Below, piece by piece: positions 8,161-24,200 of a stretch of DNA of 33,312 nucleotides. The notes under the pieces are model-generated. The model had not been told where the DNA came from, searched no databases, and was given only the letters and a program-made list of their open reading frames with translations. Numbering within the stretch: position 1 is the stretch's first letter; the number at the start of each line of letters is the position of its first letter. The DNA comes from Verrucomicrobiaceae bacterium (GTDB lineage Bacteria > Verrucomicrobiota > Verrucomicrobiia > Verrucomicrobiales > DEV007), in the NCBI GenBank assembly GCA_012719225.1, contig JAAYAT010000246.1, positions 1-33,312 of the forward strand. The letters run 5' to 3'. The position numbers were made by a program, and so were the translations under genes.

Positions 8161-9417
8161 TCAGGGGTTTGGTTCACGGGGCGTTCCCAGAGTGATGCGG
8201 AAGCCGTCGCGGGAGTCGGAGTAGCCCGGCCCGCGCAGACCGAGTCGGACGGCGCAGCGGGCGTTGCCGGGCACGTCGAAGTAGTTGCCGCCGCGGCAGA
8301 CCGGGCGGGGGTTCTCGTCGACGAAATGGACTTCCTCGTGTGCGCCGGCCGGGTCGAAGTGGTCGAGAACGATCTCCCAGACTCCGCCGCACATGTCGGC
8401 GAGGCCGAAGCCGTTGCGGCCCCGCTCCCCGTAGTGGTCCGCCGGCGAGACAAAGGCGAAGCCATCGCTCCAGGGTACCTTCGCAAGCGGCCAGGTGCGG
8501 GTGCGCCCGGGCAGGAAGTCGATCCCGGAAATGTTGAGGCGTCCCTCGCCTTCCTCGATCTCGTCGCCCCACCAGAAGGCGAGGCTCTCCTTGCTGCCGC
8601 CCCGGCAGGCGTATTCCCATTCGGTCTCGGTGGGGAGTCGATAGACCAGGCCCTCGGGAAGGCGGTCCGCGGCGCGTTCCCGCTCCGTCAGCCATTCGCA
8701 GAAAGCGCGGGCGTCGTTCCAGCTCACGCAGACCACGGGAAAGTCATCGCGCAGGGGAAAGGGAAAATTCGGATCGCGCCAGCTCTTTCCCTCCATCGGC
8801 TTCCACGGGTGGACCACTCCCGAGGCGAAGCGGTAGCCAGTCCATTCCGGGTCGAAGCACTGCGTCGTCCCGCCGGGTTTTTCCGCGTCGGTGACGTAGC
8901 CGCTCTCCTCCGCGAAGCGCCGGAACTGCCCCATCGTCACTTCGGTGCGCCCCATCCAGAAGGCCTCCTTCACCCGCGCCGGACGCGACTCGCCCTCGAA
9001 GGATTCGCGCGAGGTTCCCGGCGTGGCCCCGCCTTCGATCCCGGTGGCCCAGGCCTTCTCCTCCGTCGTGCTGCCCATGAGAAATTCGCCGGGCGGGATG
9101 GCGAGAAGCTCGAGGGAGACGCCCGTGCCGAGATCGACGCGTTTCGCCTCCCCTTCCTGCGCCGACAGGGGGAGCATCCATAGAAGAAAGGCCGCCACGC
9201 AGAGATAGCGACTCCCCGTAGCATGGGCATCCTGCCCATGCACCGTGTGAAGACGCCCGGAGTCCTTGCCAGATCCTTCGCGGAAGACCGTCCGCCTCTT
9301 CGCTGTTGGAGCGATTGCCACTCTCCCGGCCTTTCCGCCTTCCAGAACAGTGCATGGGCTGGAAGCCCATGCTACGGGCGGAGCCAACGACGTTTCCTGA
9401 ATGCGGGGCGCGTTCAT
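8161..9417 (-). CDS. Secreted SUMF (formylglycine-generating-enzyme fold) protein with in-frame repeat insertion
   Basis: This 418-residue protein starts at 9417, where the ATG overlaps the stop of the upstream gene (ATGA). Residues 1-14 are followed by about 54 residues encoded by a palindromic element (9215-9378), then by a signal-peptide-like core (YLCVAAFLLWMLPLSAQ, 71-87) and the SUMF domain (about 95-415). Domain hallmarks are IPPGEFLMGS, VSWNDARAFCEWL, RLPTETEWEYACRGG, CGGVWE and CRGGNYFD. The two active-site cysteines of true formylglycine-generating enzymes, which follow the GGS/N-Y motif, are absent (FDVPGNA instead), so sulfatase activation is unlikely. A role in binding or modifying the neighbouring secreted oxidoreductases is inferred. 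A later Met at residue 81 would cut the signal peptide. Confidence 0.82.
   Translation of the reverse strand: MNAPRIQETSLAPPVAWASSPCTVLEGGKAGRVAIAPTAKRRTVFREGSGKDSGRLHTVHGQDAHATGSRYLCVAAFLLWMLPLSAQEGEAKRVDLGTGVSLELLAIPPGEFLMGSTTEEKAWATGIEGGATPGTSRESFEGESRPARVKEAFWMGRTEVTMGQFRRFAEESGYVTDAEKPGGTTQCFDPEWTGYRFASGVVHPWKPMEGKSWRDPNFPFPLRDDFPVVCVSWNDARAFCEWLTERERAADRLPEGLVYRLPTETEWEYACRGGSKESLAFWWGDEIEEGEGRLNISGIDFLPGRTRTWPLAKVPWSDGFAFVSPADHYGERGRNGFGLADMCGGVWEIVLDHFDPAGAHEEVHFVDENPRPVCRGGNYFDVPGNARCAVRLGLRGPGYSDSRDGFRITLGTPREPNP
9215..9378. repeat. REPIN-like paired palindromic element inside a coding region
   Basis: The left arm (9215-9243) and the right arm (9350-9378) are 29-bp reverse complements with 2 mismatches. 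Each arm is itself a hairpin, GCATGGGC-5 nt-GCCCATGC. Between them lie 106 bp without their own gene. This is the REP-doublet (REPIN) plan: two REP palindromes in inverted orientation around a spacer. I recall peptides derived from similar GCATGGGC palindromes in translated verrucomicrobial genomes, but cannot check this here. The element lies in the 5' part of the SUMF gene and keeps the reading frame open. Confidence 0.82.
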
Positions 9418-12400
9418 TTGCTGATCGGCTGGGAAATGCGGAGGTAGGCGAACAGATCGCGCCATTGCTGCTCGTCGAGTCCTTCCAGCAAGCCCTCGGG
9501 CATGAGACTGCGCCCCATCGGCTCGACCGATTCGATTTCGGCGGCGGAGAGGGTCAGGTCCTGCCCGTCGAGACCGCGCAGCACGGTGACCTGGTTGTCG
9601 CGGTCCACCTGGAATCCTCCGAGGGTGCGGCCGTCCTTCGTTTTTACGGTGATGAACTGGAAGCCCTCGCGAATCTCGGCGTTGGGATTGACGATGCTGA
9701 TGAGCATGGTCCCGAGATCGTCGCGCTGGTAGCTGGTCAGTTCGGGTCCGATGTTGCCTCCCTTGAAGAACAATTTGTGGCAGCTCGCGCAGCGCTGGTC
9801 GTAAATCGCCTCTCCGGCATAGGGACTTCCCGGAGCTTTTTTGAGAGCTTCCTCGACGGCGGCGATCTTTGCGTTGAAATCCATCCCGGCGGTCTCGGCC
9901 CGGGGGAAAAGTTTCACCGCGGCGGTGCGGACGGATTCCTCGGGATGCGAGCGCAACTGATCGGCGACGTCGTTGGGCACCAGCGCGAGCGGCACCGCAC
10001 CCGATTGCAAGGCGGCGATGAGCGCGTCGGCCCAAGCCGGACGACTCCCCAGCAGGGTGAAGGCGGCGGGGCGCACTTCTTCGGGGAGTTCCGGGAGATG
10101 TGTCAGGGTCTTCTCGGCGATGACGGCGTCGTCGTAGGTGCCCAGCGAGGCGAAGGCGGCGCGACGCAGATCGGTGTCGCCTTTTCCTCCCGCCACTTTC
10201 AGGAGCACCGGCACGGCCTCGGCGTGTTTGATTTCGCCAAAGCTGCGGGTGTAGCGGAGACGCTCGTCGAGGGGTGCCTTGGCATCGGCGACGAGGGCGA
10301 GAGCCTCTTTCACCGCCGCTTCCTCTCCCTGGCGCAGGCGGATCCCGAGGGACGCGCCGCCCGAGTCGGCGATCGCCGCGATCAGCTCTTCCGGCAGGGC
10401 GGCCATGGTGCGGCCGCGGTAGGCTTCCTCGAATCCGCTGAGGAGTTTCTCGGTTTGCTCCGGTCCGGGGGCGAGTTGGAGGAGCTTCGCCAGATGCACC
10501 AGATCCTGCCGTTTGCCTTCGACGGAGAAACGCCGCGCGATGCGGGGGAGGAGGTGCTCTTTCACGACTTTTTTCTCCCAAAGGGCGGGATTTTCAAAAA
10601 GGGCCATGACGTCGTCGGTGGACGAGGGCAGGTGCGCTTCGAGGACCCACCAGCAGAGCAGCGGGATGTAGGGATCGTCCACATCCTCATCGTGTCCGAG
10701 CAGCGCGGCAACGAGGGGGAAGCCCTGGTCGTTGACGAGGCGGCGGGCGGTCGAGGCCATCTGCGAGCGGACCTCGGCGTCGGGTTCGACGGCGGCGCGG
10801 GCGAGAAGAGTGTCAAAAACATTGGTCGCGAGCGGATAGGCCTCGGTGCGCTCGGGAGGAAGACCGAGGTTGCGCTGGATGCCGTAGGCGTCGCCCAACA
10901 AACGCACCGTCCAGTGCCGCACCGGGGCGTCGGCATGGGCGAGGGCTTTCACTGCGGTGGCGTCGTCGAGCCCGGCGATCCGCTCGAGAGCCCAGAGGGC
11001 GTGCAAGGCGGCGGGTCCGCTGCCGGTGAGGGCGAGTTCCTTCAGCTTCGGCACGACGGCTTCGTCGCCGCGTTCGCTGAGGAGGCGAACGGCGGTGACG
11101 CGGTGCCATTTGTTCTCATGCCCGAGCAGGGCGAGGAGTTCGGTCGAGGATTTGGCGGCGAGATCGTAGCCCTTTTCGAGCGGCATTCCCTCTCCGGCGA
11201 TCCGGTAAATTCGCCCGGTGGTCGGATCGATCTGGTTTTGATAGTGCTGGCCGTGGGCGATGTAGTATTCGTACATGTCCGCGACGTGGAGTGAACCGTC
11301 GGGCGCGTTGGCGACATAGACGGGGCGGAAGGCCACGTCGCTGCTTTTCACGACCGCGCCGTGGTCCACCGTGTCGAAGGTCGATCCGTGCGGTATCCAC
11401 TTCGACGCGATGACCTCGTTGTGGAGCGGATCGATCGCGAAGAGCATCCCGCGGAGCGGCTCGGGCATGGCGGTGCCGTCGGCGAAAGCCCCGAAGTGGG
11501 TGAAGCGGACCACCTCGTCCTCGGTCGCCATCTTGGGCAGATCGCCGAAGGCGTAGGGGTTGCGTGGCGGACCGAACTTGCCGGGATCGACGCCCTGCAT
11601 TTGATAAAAACCGCCCTGGACGTAGTGCCAGCCGCGGGTGCCCCCACCGTTGTGGCCCGAGTAGAGACGACCCACCTCGTCGAACTCGAGTCCGAAGGTG
11701 TTGCCGCTGCCCTCGGCGAAAATCTCGAAGGCGCGCGTCTCGGGGTGGTAGCGCCAGACCATGCAACCCTCGAAATAGACGCCGGGATGCCCCTCTGGCT
11801 CGATCCCGGGCCGGATCACGCGGCAGGACACGGTGCTGCCCTGACCTCCGTAGATCCAGCCGTCGGGTCCCCAGACGAGACCGTTGGCGGCGGAGTGACT
11901 GTCTTCGAATCCGAAACCGGACAAATGCACCACCGGATCCCCGTCGGGGACATCGTCGCCGTCGGCGTCGGGATAGAAAAGCAGGTAGGGCGCGTTCATC
12001 ACCCACACACCGCCCGTTCCGGGCAGGACCGCGTTGGCCATGTTCAGCCCATCGAGAAAGATCTCGCGCGAGTCGTAGCGGCCGTCGCCGTCCGTGTCCT
12101 CGTGAATGGTGACGAGGTCCGCGCCCCGGTCGTGGTTCGGCGGAGCCAGCGGCACCTTGTCGTAGTGGGCTCGGTAGTAGCGGTCGCGGCTGAGCATTTT
12201 CAGTCCCGCCGGGTAGGGATACTGGTTCGAGTGGATCACCCAGAGCCGTCCGCGTCCGTCGTAGCTGAAGTGGAAGGGCTGCGTGATGGCGGGTTCGGCG
12301 AGGATCTGTTCCACGGTCAGCCCGTCCGTCGTCGTGAAGGTTTCCGCTGCTTCCGCCGGCGGCAGTTTGGGACCGTGAACCTGCTCGGCGCGGCCGAGGA

Positions 12401-12926
12401 CGCGGTTCGATTCCCGGAATTCCTCGAAAGTGGCCCGGGCCGGTTTTTCGGCGAGCGCCTTGCCGGGGGTGTAGTCCTCGCCGGAGAGGATTTCCCACTC
12501 GCCTTCGAAGATGCATTCCCAGAAGTAGTTCATCAGGAAAGGCGCCTCCTGGCGGAAGCCGACCGCGCCATCGACCGGACTGGTCTTCACCGCGACCTCG
12601 TTCCACTGCCCCTTCACCAGCGTGCCGACGGGAACTTTGTAGCGGATGATGCCCGACTCGCTCCCTTCGCCGATCTTCACTCCGTTGACCCAGATCTCGT
12701 GGGTGCCGGGCAGATCGCTGAAGTTGAAGCCGACCGACTCCTCGAAGAGGTTTCGGGGGTGCTTTGAAAAGAAGCTGTCGTGGGGCTTGACCCAACTGCG
12801 CAGCCAGACCGTTCCCTCGGCGGGGATGGCACCGGGGACTTTGGCGACTTGCCAGTCGGCGGCGCTGGTCGGGAGGGCGGTCGCGAAAGCGAAGAGGGTG
12901 AGAAGGGTGACGAGATAGGGTTTCAT
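9414..12926 (-). CDS. PVC-type secreted propeller/HEAT/haem-c protein (membrane-bound dehydrogenase family)
   Basis: This 1170-residue protein has a signal peptide (MKPYLVTLLTLFAFATALPTSA). In order it shows an N-terminal jelly-roll-like region (about 25-150, WLRSWVKP...HEIWVNGVKIGEG), the Pirellula/Verrucomicrobium-type membrane-bound dehydrogenase beta-propeller (about 205-620, with Asp-rich Ca-binding-like loops such as EDTDGDGRYDSREIF and DADGDDVPDGD), HEAT repeats (about 640-1000) and a C-terminal cytochrome c-like domain with CASCH at 1046-1050. The family is thought to oxidise sugars or alcohols in the periplasm and pass electrons to haem c, but substrates are unproven. It is the first gene of the operon with the SUMF, Gfo/Idh/MocA and hydrolase-like genes. 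Confidence 0.93.
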   Translation of the reverse strand: MKPYLVTLLTLFAFATALPTSAADWQVAKVPGAIPAEGTVWLRSWVKPHDSFFSKHPRNLFEESVGFNFSDLPGTHEIWVNGVKIGEGSESGIIRYKVPVGTLVKGQWNEVAVKTSPVDGAVGFRQEAPFLMNYFWECIFEGEWEILSGEDYTPGKALAEKPARATFEEFRESNRVLGRAEQVHGPKLPPAEAAETFTTTDGLTVEQILAEPAITQPFHFSYDGRGRLWVIHSNQYPYPAGLKMLSRDRYYRAHYDKVPLAPPNHDRGADLVTIHEDTDGDGRYDSREIFLDGLNMANAVLPGTGGVWVMNAPYLLFYPDADGDDVPDGDPVVHLSGFGFEDSHSAANGLVWGPDGWIYGGQGSTVSCRVIRPGIEPEGHPGVYFEGCMVWRYHPETRAFEIFAEGSGNTFGLEFDEVGRLYSGHNGGGTRGWHYVQGGFYQMQGVDPGKFGPPRNPYAFGDLPKMATEDEVVRFTHFGAFADGTAMPEPLRGMLFAIDPLHNEVIASKWIPHGSTFDTVDHGAVVKSSDVAFRPVYVANAPDGSLHVADMYEYYIAHGQHYQNQIDPTTGRIYRIAGEGMPLEKGYDLAAKSSTELLALLGHENKWHRVTAVRLLSERGDEAVVPKLKELALTGSGPAALHALWALERIAGLDDATAVKALAHADAPVRHWTVRLLGDAYGIQRNLGLPPERTEAYPLATNVFDTLLARAAVEPDAEVRSQMASTARRLVNDQGFPLVAALLGHDEDVDDPYIPLLCWWVLEAHLPSSTDDVMALFENPALWEKKVVKEHLLPRIARRFSVEGKRQDLVHLAKLLQLAPGPEQTEKLLSGFEEAYRGRTMAALPEELIAAIADSGGASLGIRLRQGEEAAVKEALALVADAKAPLDERLRYTRSFGEIKHAEAVPVLLKVAGGKGDTDLRRAAFASLGTYDDAVIAEKTLTHLPELPEEVRPAAFTLLGSRPAWADALIAALQSGAVPLALVPNDVADQLRSHPEESVRTAAVKLFPRAETAGMDFNAKIAAVEEALKKAPGSPYAGEAIYDQRCASCHKLFFKGGNIGPELTSYQRDDLGTMLISIVNPNAEIREGFQFITVKTKDGRTLGGFQVDRDNQVTVLRGLDGQDLTLSAAEIESVEPMGRSLMPEGLLEGLDEQQWRDLFAYLRISQPISK

Positions 12927-21215: not shown

Positions 21216-24200
21216 TCACACTTTCTGCAACTGCCGCTTGAGGCTGAAGCGGAGGGAAAAGAAGGCCACCACGATGAACATGATCATGGCGAAAAGGTTG
21301 AGATCGAGGGTCTTCACGGTGAAGGCGAAGAGGGGAGTCTCGCTCCGGCGGGGGAAGCGATACTGGCGCTCGGCACCGAAGAAAATGTTCGGCGGGTTGG
21401 CTTTCTTGCGGTAGTCCTCGCGCTCGACTTCGGCGCGGACGAAGAGGTCCTGGACCTTGCTGTTGAGATAGAGATCGCCGACGGAGTAGGTTTTTTCTCC
21501 GGTTCCGGTGGTTTCGTAATAGGGTTCGGGATCGAAGCGGCCTTCTTCGAGGGCTTCGCGGATGGACTTGAGCTGGCGGCTGACCTGACGGGGCGATTCG
21601 CCTTTGATCCCGTGAATCACGGCGAGGGCCTGCTTGAACTGGTAGAGGCGTTCGTGCTGGGCTTCGGTGAGATCCTGATCGAGGGGGATGCGGCTGAATT
21701 TCTGGATTTCCCGTTCGATGTAATTGGTCAGGGTGCTGGCGGGATTGTGCTCGGCGTGGGCGATGATGACCGCTTCGTAGCTCCAGCGCAGGGGCATGAA
21801 GTGGCAGATCGTGGGCACCTTGAGGCGGCTCGCCTCCTCTTTTTCGTCTTCGGGGACGAACCACTGCCGGATGTTCTGGATGATGTCGAAACTGCGGTTC
21901 ATCTCGTCGTATTTGATGAGCGCTCCGCCGAGGATGATGTTGGGGATGAGGATGAGGGGGATGATGTTGATGGCGGTCTTGGGGCTGCTCACGATGCTGG
22001 AGATGAAGAGACCGGCGGCGATGCCGACGAAGGAGGTGAGGAACATCCAGAGGAGGTTGTGGAGGAACATGTCCCGGATCCCGAGGATGGCGTTGCCGAT
22101 GAGCAGGTAGATGACGCACTGGATCAGCGCGAAGAAGCCGAGGGAGAGGTATTTGCCGATGATGTAGCCGCTCACCCGGAAGCCGTGGTGGCGCTCGCGC
22201 TGGAGGAGATTGCGGTCTCGGATGATCTCTTCGGCGGAGTTGGTCATGCCGAGGAAGAGGGCGACGACGAGCCCGAGGAAGAGGTAGGTGGGGATGTGGA
22301 AGGCGTTGGCGAAGTTGTAGGCGCCGTCTTCGGAGTATCGCATCACCATGGCGATGAGGATGGCGAGGGCGGGGGCTTCCAGCAGGGTGGTGGCGAGGTT
22401 GGCCCGGTTGCGCAGTTTGCTGAGGAAGGCGCGTTTGAACTGGTTGGAAAAGCGGACCCAGTCGTGGCGCGGTTTGCGCGGGGGCGCCTGCGGCGTTTTC
22501 TGCAGCGAGGACGTCTGCGAGGTGTCGGCGTCGAGCTCGCGGAGATTGACCTCTTCGAGGAGGCGATAGGTCTGGAAGCGGTCGGACCAGAAGGCGGAGT
22601 TGAAACGCCGCGCGGGAATGAGATTGCCGCGGTTGTCGCGTTCGAAGATGACATCCCCGCCGAGGTCGCGCAGGGGGGTCTCGAGCACGTCGAAGATGAA
22701 ATCGGGGGTGAGATTGGCGCTGCTGTCCCCGTCGCCGAGGGGGGCGGCGCTGGTGTAGATGCCCTCCTGTTTGCGGGCCTCGTGAAAGTATTCGAGAATC
22801 TGTGTCGGCGTTCCGAAAAAGGCCATTTTCCCCCCGTTGTCGAGGAGGAGCACCTTGTCGAACATGTGGAAAAGGCGGCTGCTGGGCTGGTGGATGGAGA
22901 CGAGGGTGATCTTGTTGTGGGTGAGCCCGCGGATCACTTCGAGGACGTGTTCGGAATCCTTCGAGGAGAGTCCCGAGGTCGGTTCGTCGAAGAGGTAGAT
23001 GTCGGCGATCCCTATCATGTCCATGCCGGCGTTGAGACGGCGGCGCTGGCCTCCGGAGAGGCTTTTGGTCTCCTGATCGCCGGCGAGGCGGTGGCGGATT
23101 TCGTTGAGGCCGAGTTCGATGAGCTTGGAATCGACGCGGCGACGGCGTTCCAGGACGGGGAAATGGGGCGCGCGGATCGCGGCGGCGGTGTCGAGGTTTT
23201 CTTCCACCGTGAGGAGCGGGTCGAAGGTCTCGTCCTGCGGGATGATGGCGATGTAGGACTTGAGGTGTTCGTGCTCGGTGTAGAGTTCGACGCCGTTGAG
23301 GTCGATGCGTCCGCCGCGCGGTTTGAGTTGTCCGCCGATGGCCTTGAGCAGGGTGCTCTTGCCGCAGCCGCTCGGCCCGATGATGCAGACCATCTCCCCG
23401 CGCTGGATCGAGAGGGAGACCCCGTCGAGGGCGGGGATCTTGCGGTCGTAGGAATGGCTGACATCGCGCACCTTGAGCGTGCTGATGACATTGCGTTCTT
23501 CTTCGATGATGCCTTCGGAAAAGAGGCAGCGCAGGTATTGGTCGCTGCCCAGGGAGATGACGCTGCCGTCCTTGAGCGGGGCCTGGCCGCGCACGACGCC
23601 GCCTTCGACCGCGACGGGGCGCTCGGACTCGATCACTTCGAGGAGTCCGGTTTTGGTGCTGTTGTCGCAGCGGATCCGGAGGAGGATTTTTCCCGAGGTG
23701 CCCGGGCTGAGAAGAATGTCGCCGGGGGAGAGTTGGCCGGGATCGTTGGAGACGAGATAGACGGTGCGGTTCGGCGGTAGGCTGAAACGTCCGCCGAGCT
23801 CGCGGGCCTTGCGGCGCAGGTCGTCGAAGGAGATCTCGGTATGGTCGGGGAAATCGAGGCGCTCGCGCGAGGTCACTTCGAAGGTGTCGCCTTTGTGGAG
23901 AGCCCGTTTTCCGATGACGGCCTCGGTGGCATTGAGGACTTCGACCTGGATCTTGAGTCCGAAGGAAACGCGCAGGTAGCTCTGCTTCGTCCGCACTTTT
24001 TCGATGAAGTGATTGCGGTTGCTGTCCTGGGCCAGGTAGAGCTGGACGGAGGAGAGATTCTTTTTGGTGTTGAAATAAAAGACCAGATCTTCGAAAGCGA
24101 GGACCTCTTCCCCGATGATGAGGCTCTGGCCTTCGTAGACGCGGCAGAACTCGCCCGCGTTGACCTGACGGCCCCGCGCGAGGATGGGACCGGGGCCGAG

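Follow-up and report, generated by a model that had tools for sequence, protein, structure and literature searches.

REPINs and RAYTs have been described by Bertels and Rainey (2011, PMC3116915) and by Park et al. (2021, PMC8049555). In PMC8049555 RAYTs are taken to be single-copy genes, inherited vertically and not copying themselves, and the insertion of a REPIN is treated as an event that destroys a gene. The system described here shares with REPIN/RAYT systems an inverted pair of GTAG-tagged hairpins, their repetition in the genome and an HUH/Y1 transposase with these hairpins on either side. It departs from the picture in PMC8049555 in that RAYT elements lie within many host genes and REPINs are carried in frame by genes that look intact.

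In-frame translation of such elements has been reported. The 'REP-decorated proteins' (PMC3733652, published in 2013) contain intragenic GTAG REPs that are translated in frame, most of them in Opitutus terrae, of the Verrucomicrobia; the inserts mostly encode 20–30 residues, and some are N-terminal and were suspected of being misannotated. Translated GTAG hairpins, some at N-termini, are likewise what we find, whereas that paper neither describes a RAYT gene in frame within a host gene nor singles out signal peptides. The Rickettsia palindromic elements (RPEs, ∼150 bp) are also translated in frame and are reported to encode a conserved peptide (PMC10969869, PMC3733652). As described there the RPEs behave alike, as palindromic elements translated within host proteins, but they belong to other bacteria, no transposase is mentioned with them, and in our elements lengths and frames are not conserved. 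Taken alone, the element in the window (the whole stretch of DNA analyzed, 33,312 nt) is of a kind already known, as an in-frame GTAG REP (PMC3733652) with RPEs alike (PMC10969869). What is new, as far as the open-licence literature can be searched, is the presence inside essential genes of RAYT elements that would be translated with them; searches of that literature for nested RAYT genes (in frame, in Verrucomicrobia, in a tRNA synthetase) returned no report.

A REPIN ahead of the signal-peptide core of a SUMF-like gene

The window comes from a Verrucomicrobiaceae genome (G000) assembled into 443 contigs (3.98 Mb, 97.7% complete), which by its named relatives belongs to the Akkermansiaceae/Verrucomicrobiales. 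The host gene lies on the minus strand (8161–9417) and encodes a SUMF/FGE-like secreted protein of 418 aa (PF03781, Pfam E = 2.7e-47). Its ATG forms an ATGA stop/start overlap (9414–9417, minus strand) with the upstream gene (9414–12926, minus strand), which has DUF7133, HEAT and cytochrome c-like matches in Pfam and whose stop codon occupies 9414–9416. From the ATG at 9417 the frame is open to the stop ending at 8161 and runs through the first 13 codons (MNAPRIQETSLAP; 9379–9417, minus strand), which form the host n-region, then the element, and then the hydrophobic core YLCVAAFLLWMLPLSA (9160–9207, minus strand). This core, like the others discussed below, was assigned by hydropathy, and its position matches the signal peptide of the closest orthologue.

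The element itself (9215–9378) is 164 nt long, or ∼54.7 codons, and has two inverted arms of 32 nt that are 91% complementary and are separated by 100 nt; the left arm occupies 9215–9246 on the plus strand and the right arm, inverted, 9347–9378 on the minus strand. Within each arm, a perfect 8-bp palindrome encloses a 5-nt loop (GCATGGGC-N5-GCCCATGC), namely GCATGGGC-ATCCT-GCCCATGC at 9221–9241 and, written on the plus strand, GCATGGGC-TGGAA-GCCCATGC at 9352–9372, and the GTAG tag is outermost in both, with GTAGCATGGGC at the two outer ends. By this sequence architecture, an inverted REP pair with a spacer, it belongs to the REPINs, the non-autonomous mobile elements of REP/RAYT systems. As RNA it is predicted to fold at −96.3 kcal/mol, compared with −67.7 ± 4.2 for shuffled sequences (z = −6.8; 0/200 as low), with the arms pairing with one another in a single long stem and not folding into a hairpin each. 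A preliminary description of this DNA had recognized a 164-bp element with inverted hairpin arms, which these measurements bear out. It had placed the element 36 bp inside the gene, after the first 14 residues and ahead of the core; the position is right, but the offset is 39 nt and the count 13 codons. It had also predicted strong mRNA hairpins just after the start codon.

The element is missing from the closest SUMF orthologue, that of UBA2367 (L070, 90% identical), which starts at an ATGA in the same way and whose signal peptide (MNALSPIFRSLFPVVLFSAIFALAPLLAQEG) is plain. On both sides the flanking sequence of L070 aligns collinearly with the window (83% and 85%), and an assembly chimera was rejected as the origin of the window element on this ground. 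The distance from the ATG to CAGGAAGG is 84 nt in L070 vs 258 nt in the window, and the difference of 174 nt is exactly 58 codons. The preliminary description was correct that the gene overlaps its predecessor by ATGA, an overlap kept in the orthologue, and that the frame stays open through the element, the net gain being these 58 codons; ATG 9417 is, from the sequence, the probable start of translation.

The SUMF orthologue of a further genome, G010, carries a translated hairpin element in frame at the same place. It is 63% identical to the window element and has a different loop in one arm, and is thus a distinct copy. The same SUMF spot has probably been hit twice, judging by these sequences, the alternative history being one old insertion followed by loss. 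The similar segment in G010 might be taken to mean that the 54 residues are a conserved functional part of the protein whose DNA is palindromic by chance. However, because the G010 copy differs in sequence and loop, the insert is an element rather than a conserved domain of the protein; the segment is absent from the closest orthologue and from others that we read, and the same hairpins are found elsewhere in the genome, away from the SUMF gene. We rejected conservation of the segment, whose probability we regard as close to nil. The preliminary description had proposed alignment with orthologues lacking the element, of which L070 is one, and had held that orthologues sharing the 54 residues as conserved protein would count against an insertion; no such sharing appeared.

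The reading that we favor, with a probability of roughly 0.78, is that a REPIN inserted in frame in the signal peptide is read through from the native ATGA start, and that its probable mover is a RAYT nested in leuS. The REPIN inserted, without stops, after the start codon and a short n-region and ahead of the hydrophobic core, and translation would probably run from the native start through the element to give a signal peptide with an n-region of ∼70 residues. Cleavage of the signal peptide would take the REPIN-encoded extension with it and leave the mature enzyme unchanged, which would explain the survival of such insertions. The in-frame REPIN in the signal peptide first noticed in the preliminary description is confirmed, and the interpretation given there is supported.

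The SUMF orthologues L043 (G015), L044/L071 (G013/LJ.2) and L072 (UBA6138) have a palindromic insert of another kind, GGGGACAAAGGAATTCCTTTCATTCCCCTGTCCCC (read as KGMGTKEFLSFPCP), at the junction of the upstream gene and the SUMF start, and there the gene's own ATG comes after the insert. This insert resembles the GGGGWSAS terminal repeats of TIRYT transposases as described in PMC3733652.

The hairpin family and other REPIN-bearing signal peptides

The palindrome recurs in the source genome at 21 sites with ≤2 mismatches, compared with 1 for a reversed-pattern control; a unique palindrome, which the preliminary description had named as evidence against a REPIN-like element, is not what the genome contains. 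The window element has one nearly full-length relative elsewhere in the genome (72%), and the hairpin family has matches in 12 of the 34 genomes of the genus. We read 34 REPINs across 46 regions of seven genomes, a small survey drawn from the strongest matches. Their lengths are spread over all three phases (14/12/8) without enrichment in multiples of 3, so an open frame is not a built-in property of REPINs, and a frame-preserving design was rejected for the same reason. The base rate for an open frame through a REPIN is 84/204 (41%).

REPINs lie between the n- and h-regions, with no ATG between REPIN and core, in eight cases (the window element and seven others) from five genes, a small set in which some members are orthologous and not all are independent. 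The five are the SUMF gene (window and G010), a WD40/PSCyt1 protein in G000 and G028, a PSCyt1/DUF1549/DUF1553 protein (MKIAFR[REPIN]PALLALAAITLHSTVAA), a sulfatase (MRTFAGR[REPIN]FHVFFSAVFFLSVATAA) and a 547-aa secreted protein in G029 and G042. The frame through the REPIN is open in all eight of these cases, and is closed in 5/9 where the gene's own ATG lies downstream of the REPIN.

The 547-aa protein provides a clean comparison of filled and empty sites. Its orthologues in the genus have a common start context, GGAAATGA (GGAAATG), and those that we read comprise three filled alleles (G029, G042 and G010) vs nine empty ones (G000, G001, G006, G008, G013, G015, G017, G028 and G034), the latter with short plain signal peptides such as MKSLLTLFAAAGLAISG. 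The filled alleles read MSKYPRTSG(A/V)DSR[REPIN]SL(L/F)LGV(V/A)LALLF in G029 and G042 and MSEHRKEGFGRLK[REPIN]ILGIALLVLFSTVLHA in G010; all retain the native ATG, carry the REPIN in frame and have no ATG between REPIN and core. The G029 and G042 proteins are 93% identical and come from two species. That persistence bears on the idea that the insertion has damaged the SUMF gene, with the hairpin and the long signal peptide abolishing export or expression and the gene now decaying. Strong RNA structure near the start could indeed lower expression, and GC3 in the element is 0.59, below the 0.85 of the mature gene, but the mature SUMF ORF is intact and retains its 90% identity to UBA2367, and we consider damage very improbable.

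The same data weigh on the proposal that the REPIN is effectively a 5′ leader, with translation starting inside it and the open frame upstream accidental. In the window the best alternative start would be the in-frame GTG at 9241–9243 (minus strand), codon 59 of the host frame, which would yield a normal signal peptide (MHGQDAHATGSRYLCVAAFLLWMLPLSA). Several of the other signal-peptide REPINs also contain an in-frame ATG or GTG, and PMC3733652 cautions that, for many N-terminal REPs, the annotated start may be wrong. However, no Shine–Dalgarno-like stretch precedes GTG 9243, filled and empty alleles alike keep the native start, in frame, and an open frame in 8/8 cases exceeds the base rate of 41%. 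An internal start is therefore unlikely in our judgment, and read-through from the native ATG is preferred.

Two near-tandem REPIN copies (L208:15344-15535, G000:C82) stand directly ahead of the core in the WD40/PSCyt1 protein, and the similar gene in G028 (L283) has a REPIN at the same spot.

A RAYT in frame within leuS

A scan of the source genome for Y1 transposases gave four matches, and the hairpin-flanked one (C213:5671-6345; L177, L207) is the genome's one close RAYT. Each of its ends carries an inverted hairpin; the loops, TTCCA and AGGAT, are those of the window element read along the SUMF strand, in the same order. The RAYT for which the preliminary description had suggested searching is thus present and bounded by the same hairpins, in an unexpected place: it lies in frame within leuS, without a stop on either side, in an open frame of 1167 aa. 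Unlike the usual free-standing RAYT gene it has no stop of its own, and the open frame continues for 469 codons into leuS; the transposase would therefore be an internal domain of leucyl-tRNA synthetase. The site is a variable loop of the CP1 region (VV-APEGNEDK-CFTGNG in relatives). In 24 other aligned leuS genes of the genus this loop is mostly ∼8 residues long, with a few other, unrelated loops, and none contains a RAYT. The arrangement in G000 is also found in G029 and G010, and an assembly chimera was rejected because it occurs in three separate genomes. None of these three has a further leuS match above the family cut-off besides the RAYT-bearing gene.

The predicted fusion scores 973.6 bits against the NCBIfam leuS model, with REP_Tyr_transpos inside it, and the nested RAYT has a PF01797 domain with an HUH motif (MPNHVH) and a catalytic tyrosine motif (WQAESYDH), scoring 68–74 bits against NF047646, for which the NCBIfam cut-off is 80. 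Residues H116 and H118 are invariant in 48 RAYT sequences. Between species, dN/dS is 0.10–0.12 for the RAYT core, 0.10–0.25 for LeuRS and 0.45–0.77 for the right linker and hairpin; a value of ∼0.1 indicates that the nested RAYT is under purifying selection. Modeled alone with 48 sequences, the RAYT reaches a pLDDT of 88, and Foldseek places first the structure of E. coli TnpAREP in complex with a REP hairpin (4er8, E = 4e-8), which is also the only significant sequence match of the RAYT in the PDB. Compared with TnpAREP, its best structural match, the nested RAYT is longer in its N-terminal part and lacks a stop. The AF2 model of the full LeuRS–RAYT fusion is poor (pLDDT 57.6): the RAYT part, a compact unit flanked by low-confidence linkers, and the editing domain are confident, and the catalytic core is not. 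We have for this reason not used it as evidence of function.

This hairpin-bounded RAYT, in frame in the only leuS found, is the probable mover of the window REPIN. By analogy with what has been proposed for TnpAREP, it would nick and copy hairpin-bounded single-stranded DNA. Most insertions within genes would be lost, and the survivors would be those that keep the frame in tolerant places. The n-region of a signal peptide would be tolerant because it should be cleaved off, and the loops of LeuRS, ValRS and IspG because a RAYT can fold as a separate unit.

Extra residues are found in other leuS genes as well. The loop used by the RAYT has other, unrelated residues in L242 (G028) and L248 (G008), and L222, the leuS of G005, has ∼65 extra residues elsewhere; these reflect either a general tolerance of inserts or remnants. 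UBA2367 (G028/G419) has 38 hairpin sites at ≤1 mismatch and no leuS-type RAYT, so leuS-type RAYT presence and REP abundance do not track simply. Either this RAYT was lost recently from UBA2367, or the hairpin family there is served by another RAYT, distant and free (C95, 211 aa).

Nested RAYTs across the Verrucomicrobiae

The whole leuS–RAYT junction is matched in 9 of 384 genomes of the class, from four families, which together with G029 and G010 makes eleven. Many other RAYT matches lie within stop-free frames of 400–1600 aa; by a hand count, which gives an estimate, ∼70 of ∼118 listed RAYT rows have a frame of at least 400 aa. Host genes were identified by Pfam on nineteen of the long frames, and comprise hsdR (5), ispG (3), valS (3), sua5/tsaC (2), an Eco57I-type restriction-modification gene (2, one judged by resemblance), metH (1), a dinG-like helicase gene (1) and dtd, with the RAYT at the C-terminal end (1); the remaining frame has no recognizable host. 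With this hostless frame left out and the eleven leuS genes added, there are 29 nested cases. In each of the 29 the inverted hairpins that bound the RAYT are better than those of all 20 shuffles, and all 29 keep the HUH motif. Free RAYTs mostly reach a stop 5–24 codons after the core, compared with 78–608 codons for nested RAYTs other than that in dtd.

Most of the genomes surveyed are metagenome assemblies. One of the ispG cases is from a single-contig genome (G271), in which the flanking hairpin recurs at 9 sites (control 0); because G271 is a single contig, this nested RAYT is no artefact of metagenome assembly, and a chimera was rejected for it. In a tree of 54 RAYTs the minimum number of changes is three in the leuS group, one in ispG and two in valS, which suggests that RAYTs have probably entered host genes repeatedly, including the same leuS loop. 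A single ancient insertion in leuS is unsupported, since at least three changes are forced, although three changes in the leuS group can also be read as one gain and two losses.

It could be supposed that the insert in leuS is excised at the RNA or protein level, in the manner of an intron or intein, and never forms part of a working synthetase. The fused protein may not be stable, and its full-length model is poor, both of which leave room for such removal. However, removal needs neither a maintained frame nor the absence of stops, yet both hold in all the internal cases that we read, and the insert consists only of the RAYT and its hairpins; in the inserts scanned, Pfam and NCBIfam reported no intein splicing domain. 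We consider removal improbable, although less so than damage to the SUMF gene.

We think it likely, if somewhat less so than our reading of the window, that RAYT lineages in the Verrucomicrobiae are translated guests of their host genes, under purifying selection and recurrent in the same loops, and that REPINs are likewise translated guests in signal peptides. On this account a complete but stop-less RAYT and two REP hairpins would sit in frame in loops of the essential proteins LeuRS, ValRS, IspG, TsaC/Sua5 and MetH and of defence enzymes (HsdR), and imprecise deletion of the transposase would kill the host, so that a transposase fused into an essential gene could be lost only by precise deletion. 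Nested RAYTs and in-frame REPINs conflict with the premises in PMC8049555 that insertion destroys genes and that RAYTs do not copy themselves; they provide repeated natural cases, including ones in the essential genes leuS and valS, in which both assumptions seem untrue. A possible answer to the long persistence of RAYTs is that a transposase fused into an essential gene is not easily lost. The predicted proteins, such as a synthetase that would carry a DNA-nicking domain, are testable, and signal peptides with and without 50-residue inserts form a natural series. For annotation, there is a risk that proteins with nested RAYTs are taken for assembly errors or chimeras.

Among the hsdR genes, the in-frame RAYTs do not all occupy one position in the protein (L200, G029:C70; L277, G198; L266, G086; L205, G017; L203, G006), and might affect restriction activity. 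In G280, two tandem RAYT matches (C330:22077-22700 and 22929-23552) each lie in a stop-free frame of 717 aa, apparently placing two transposase domains in one polypeptide.
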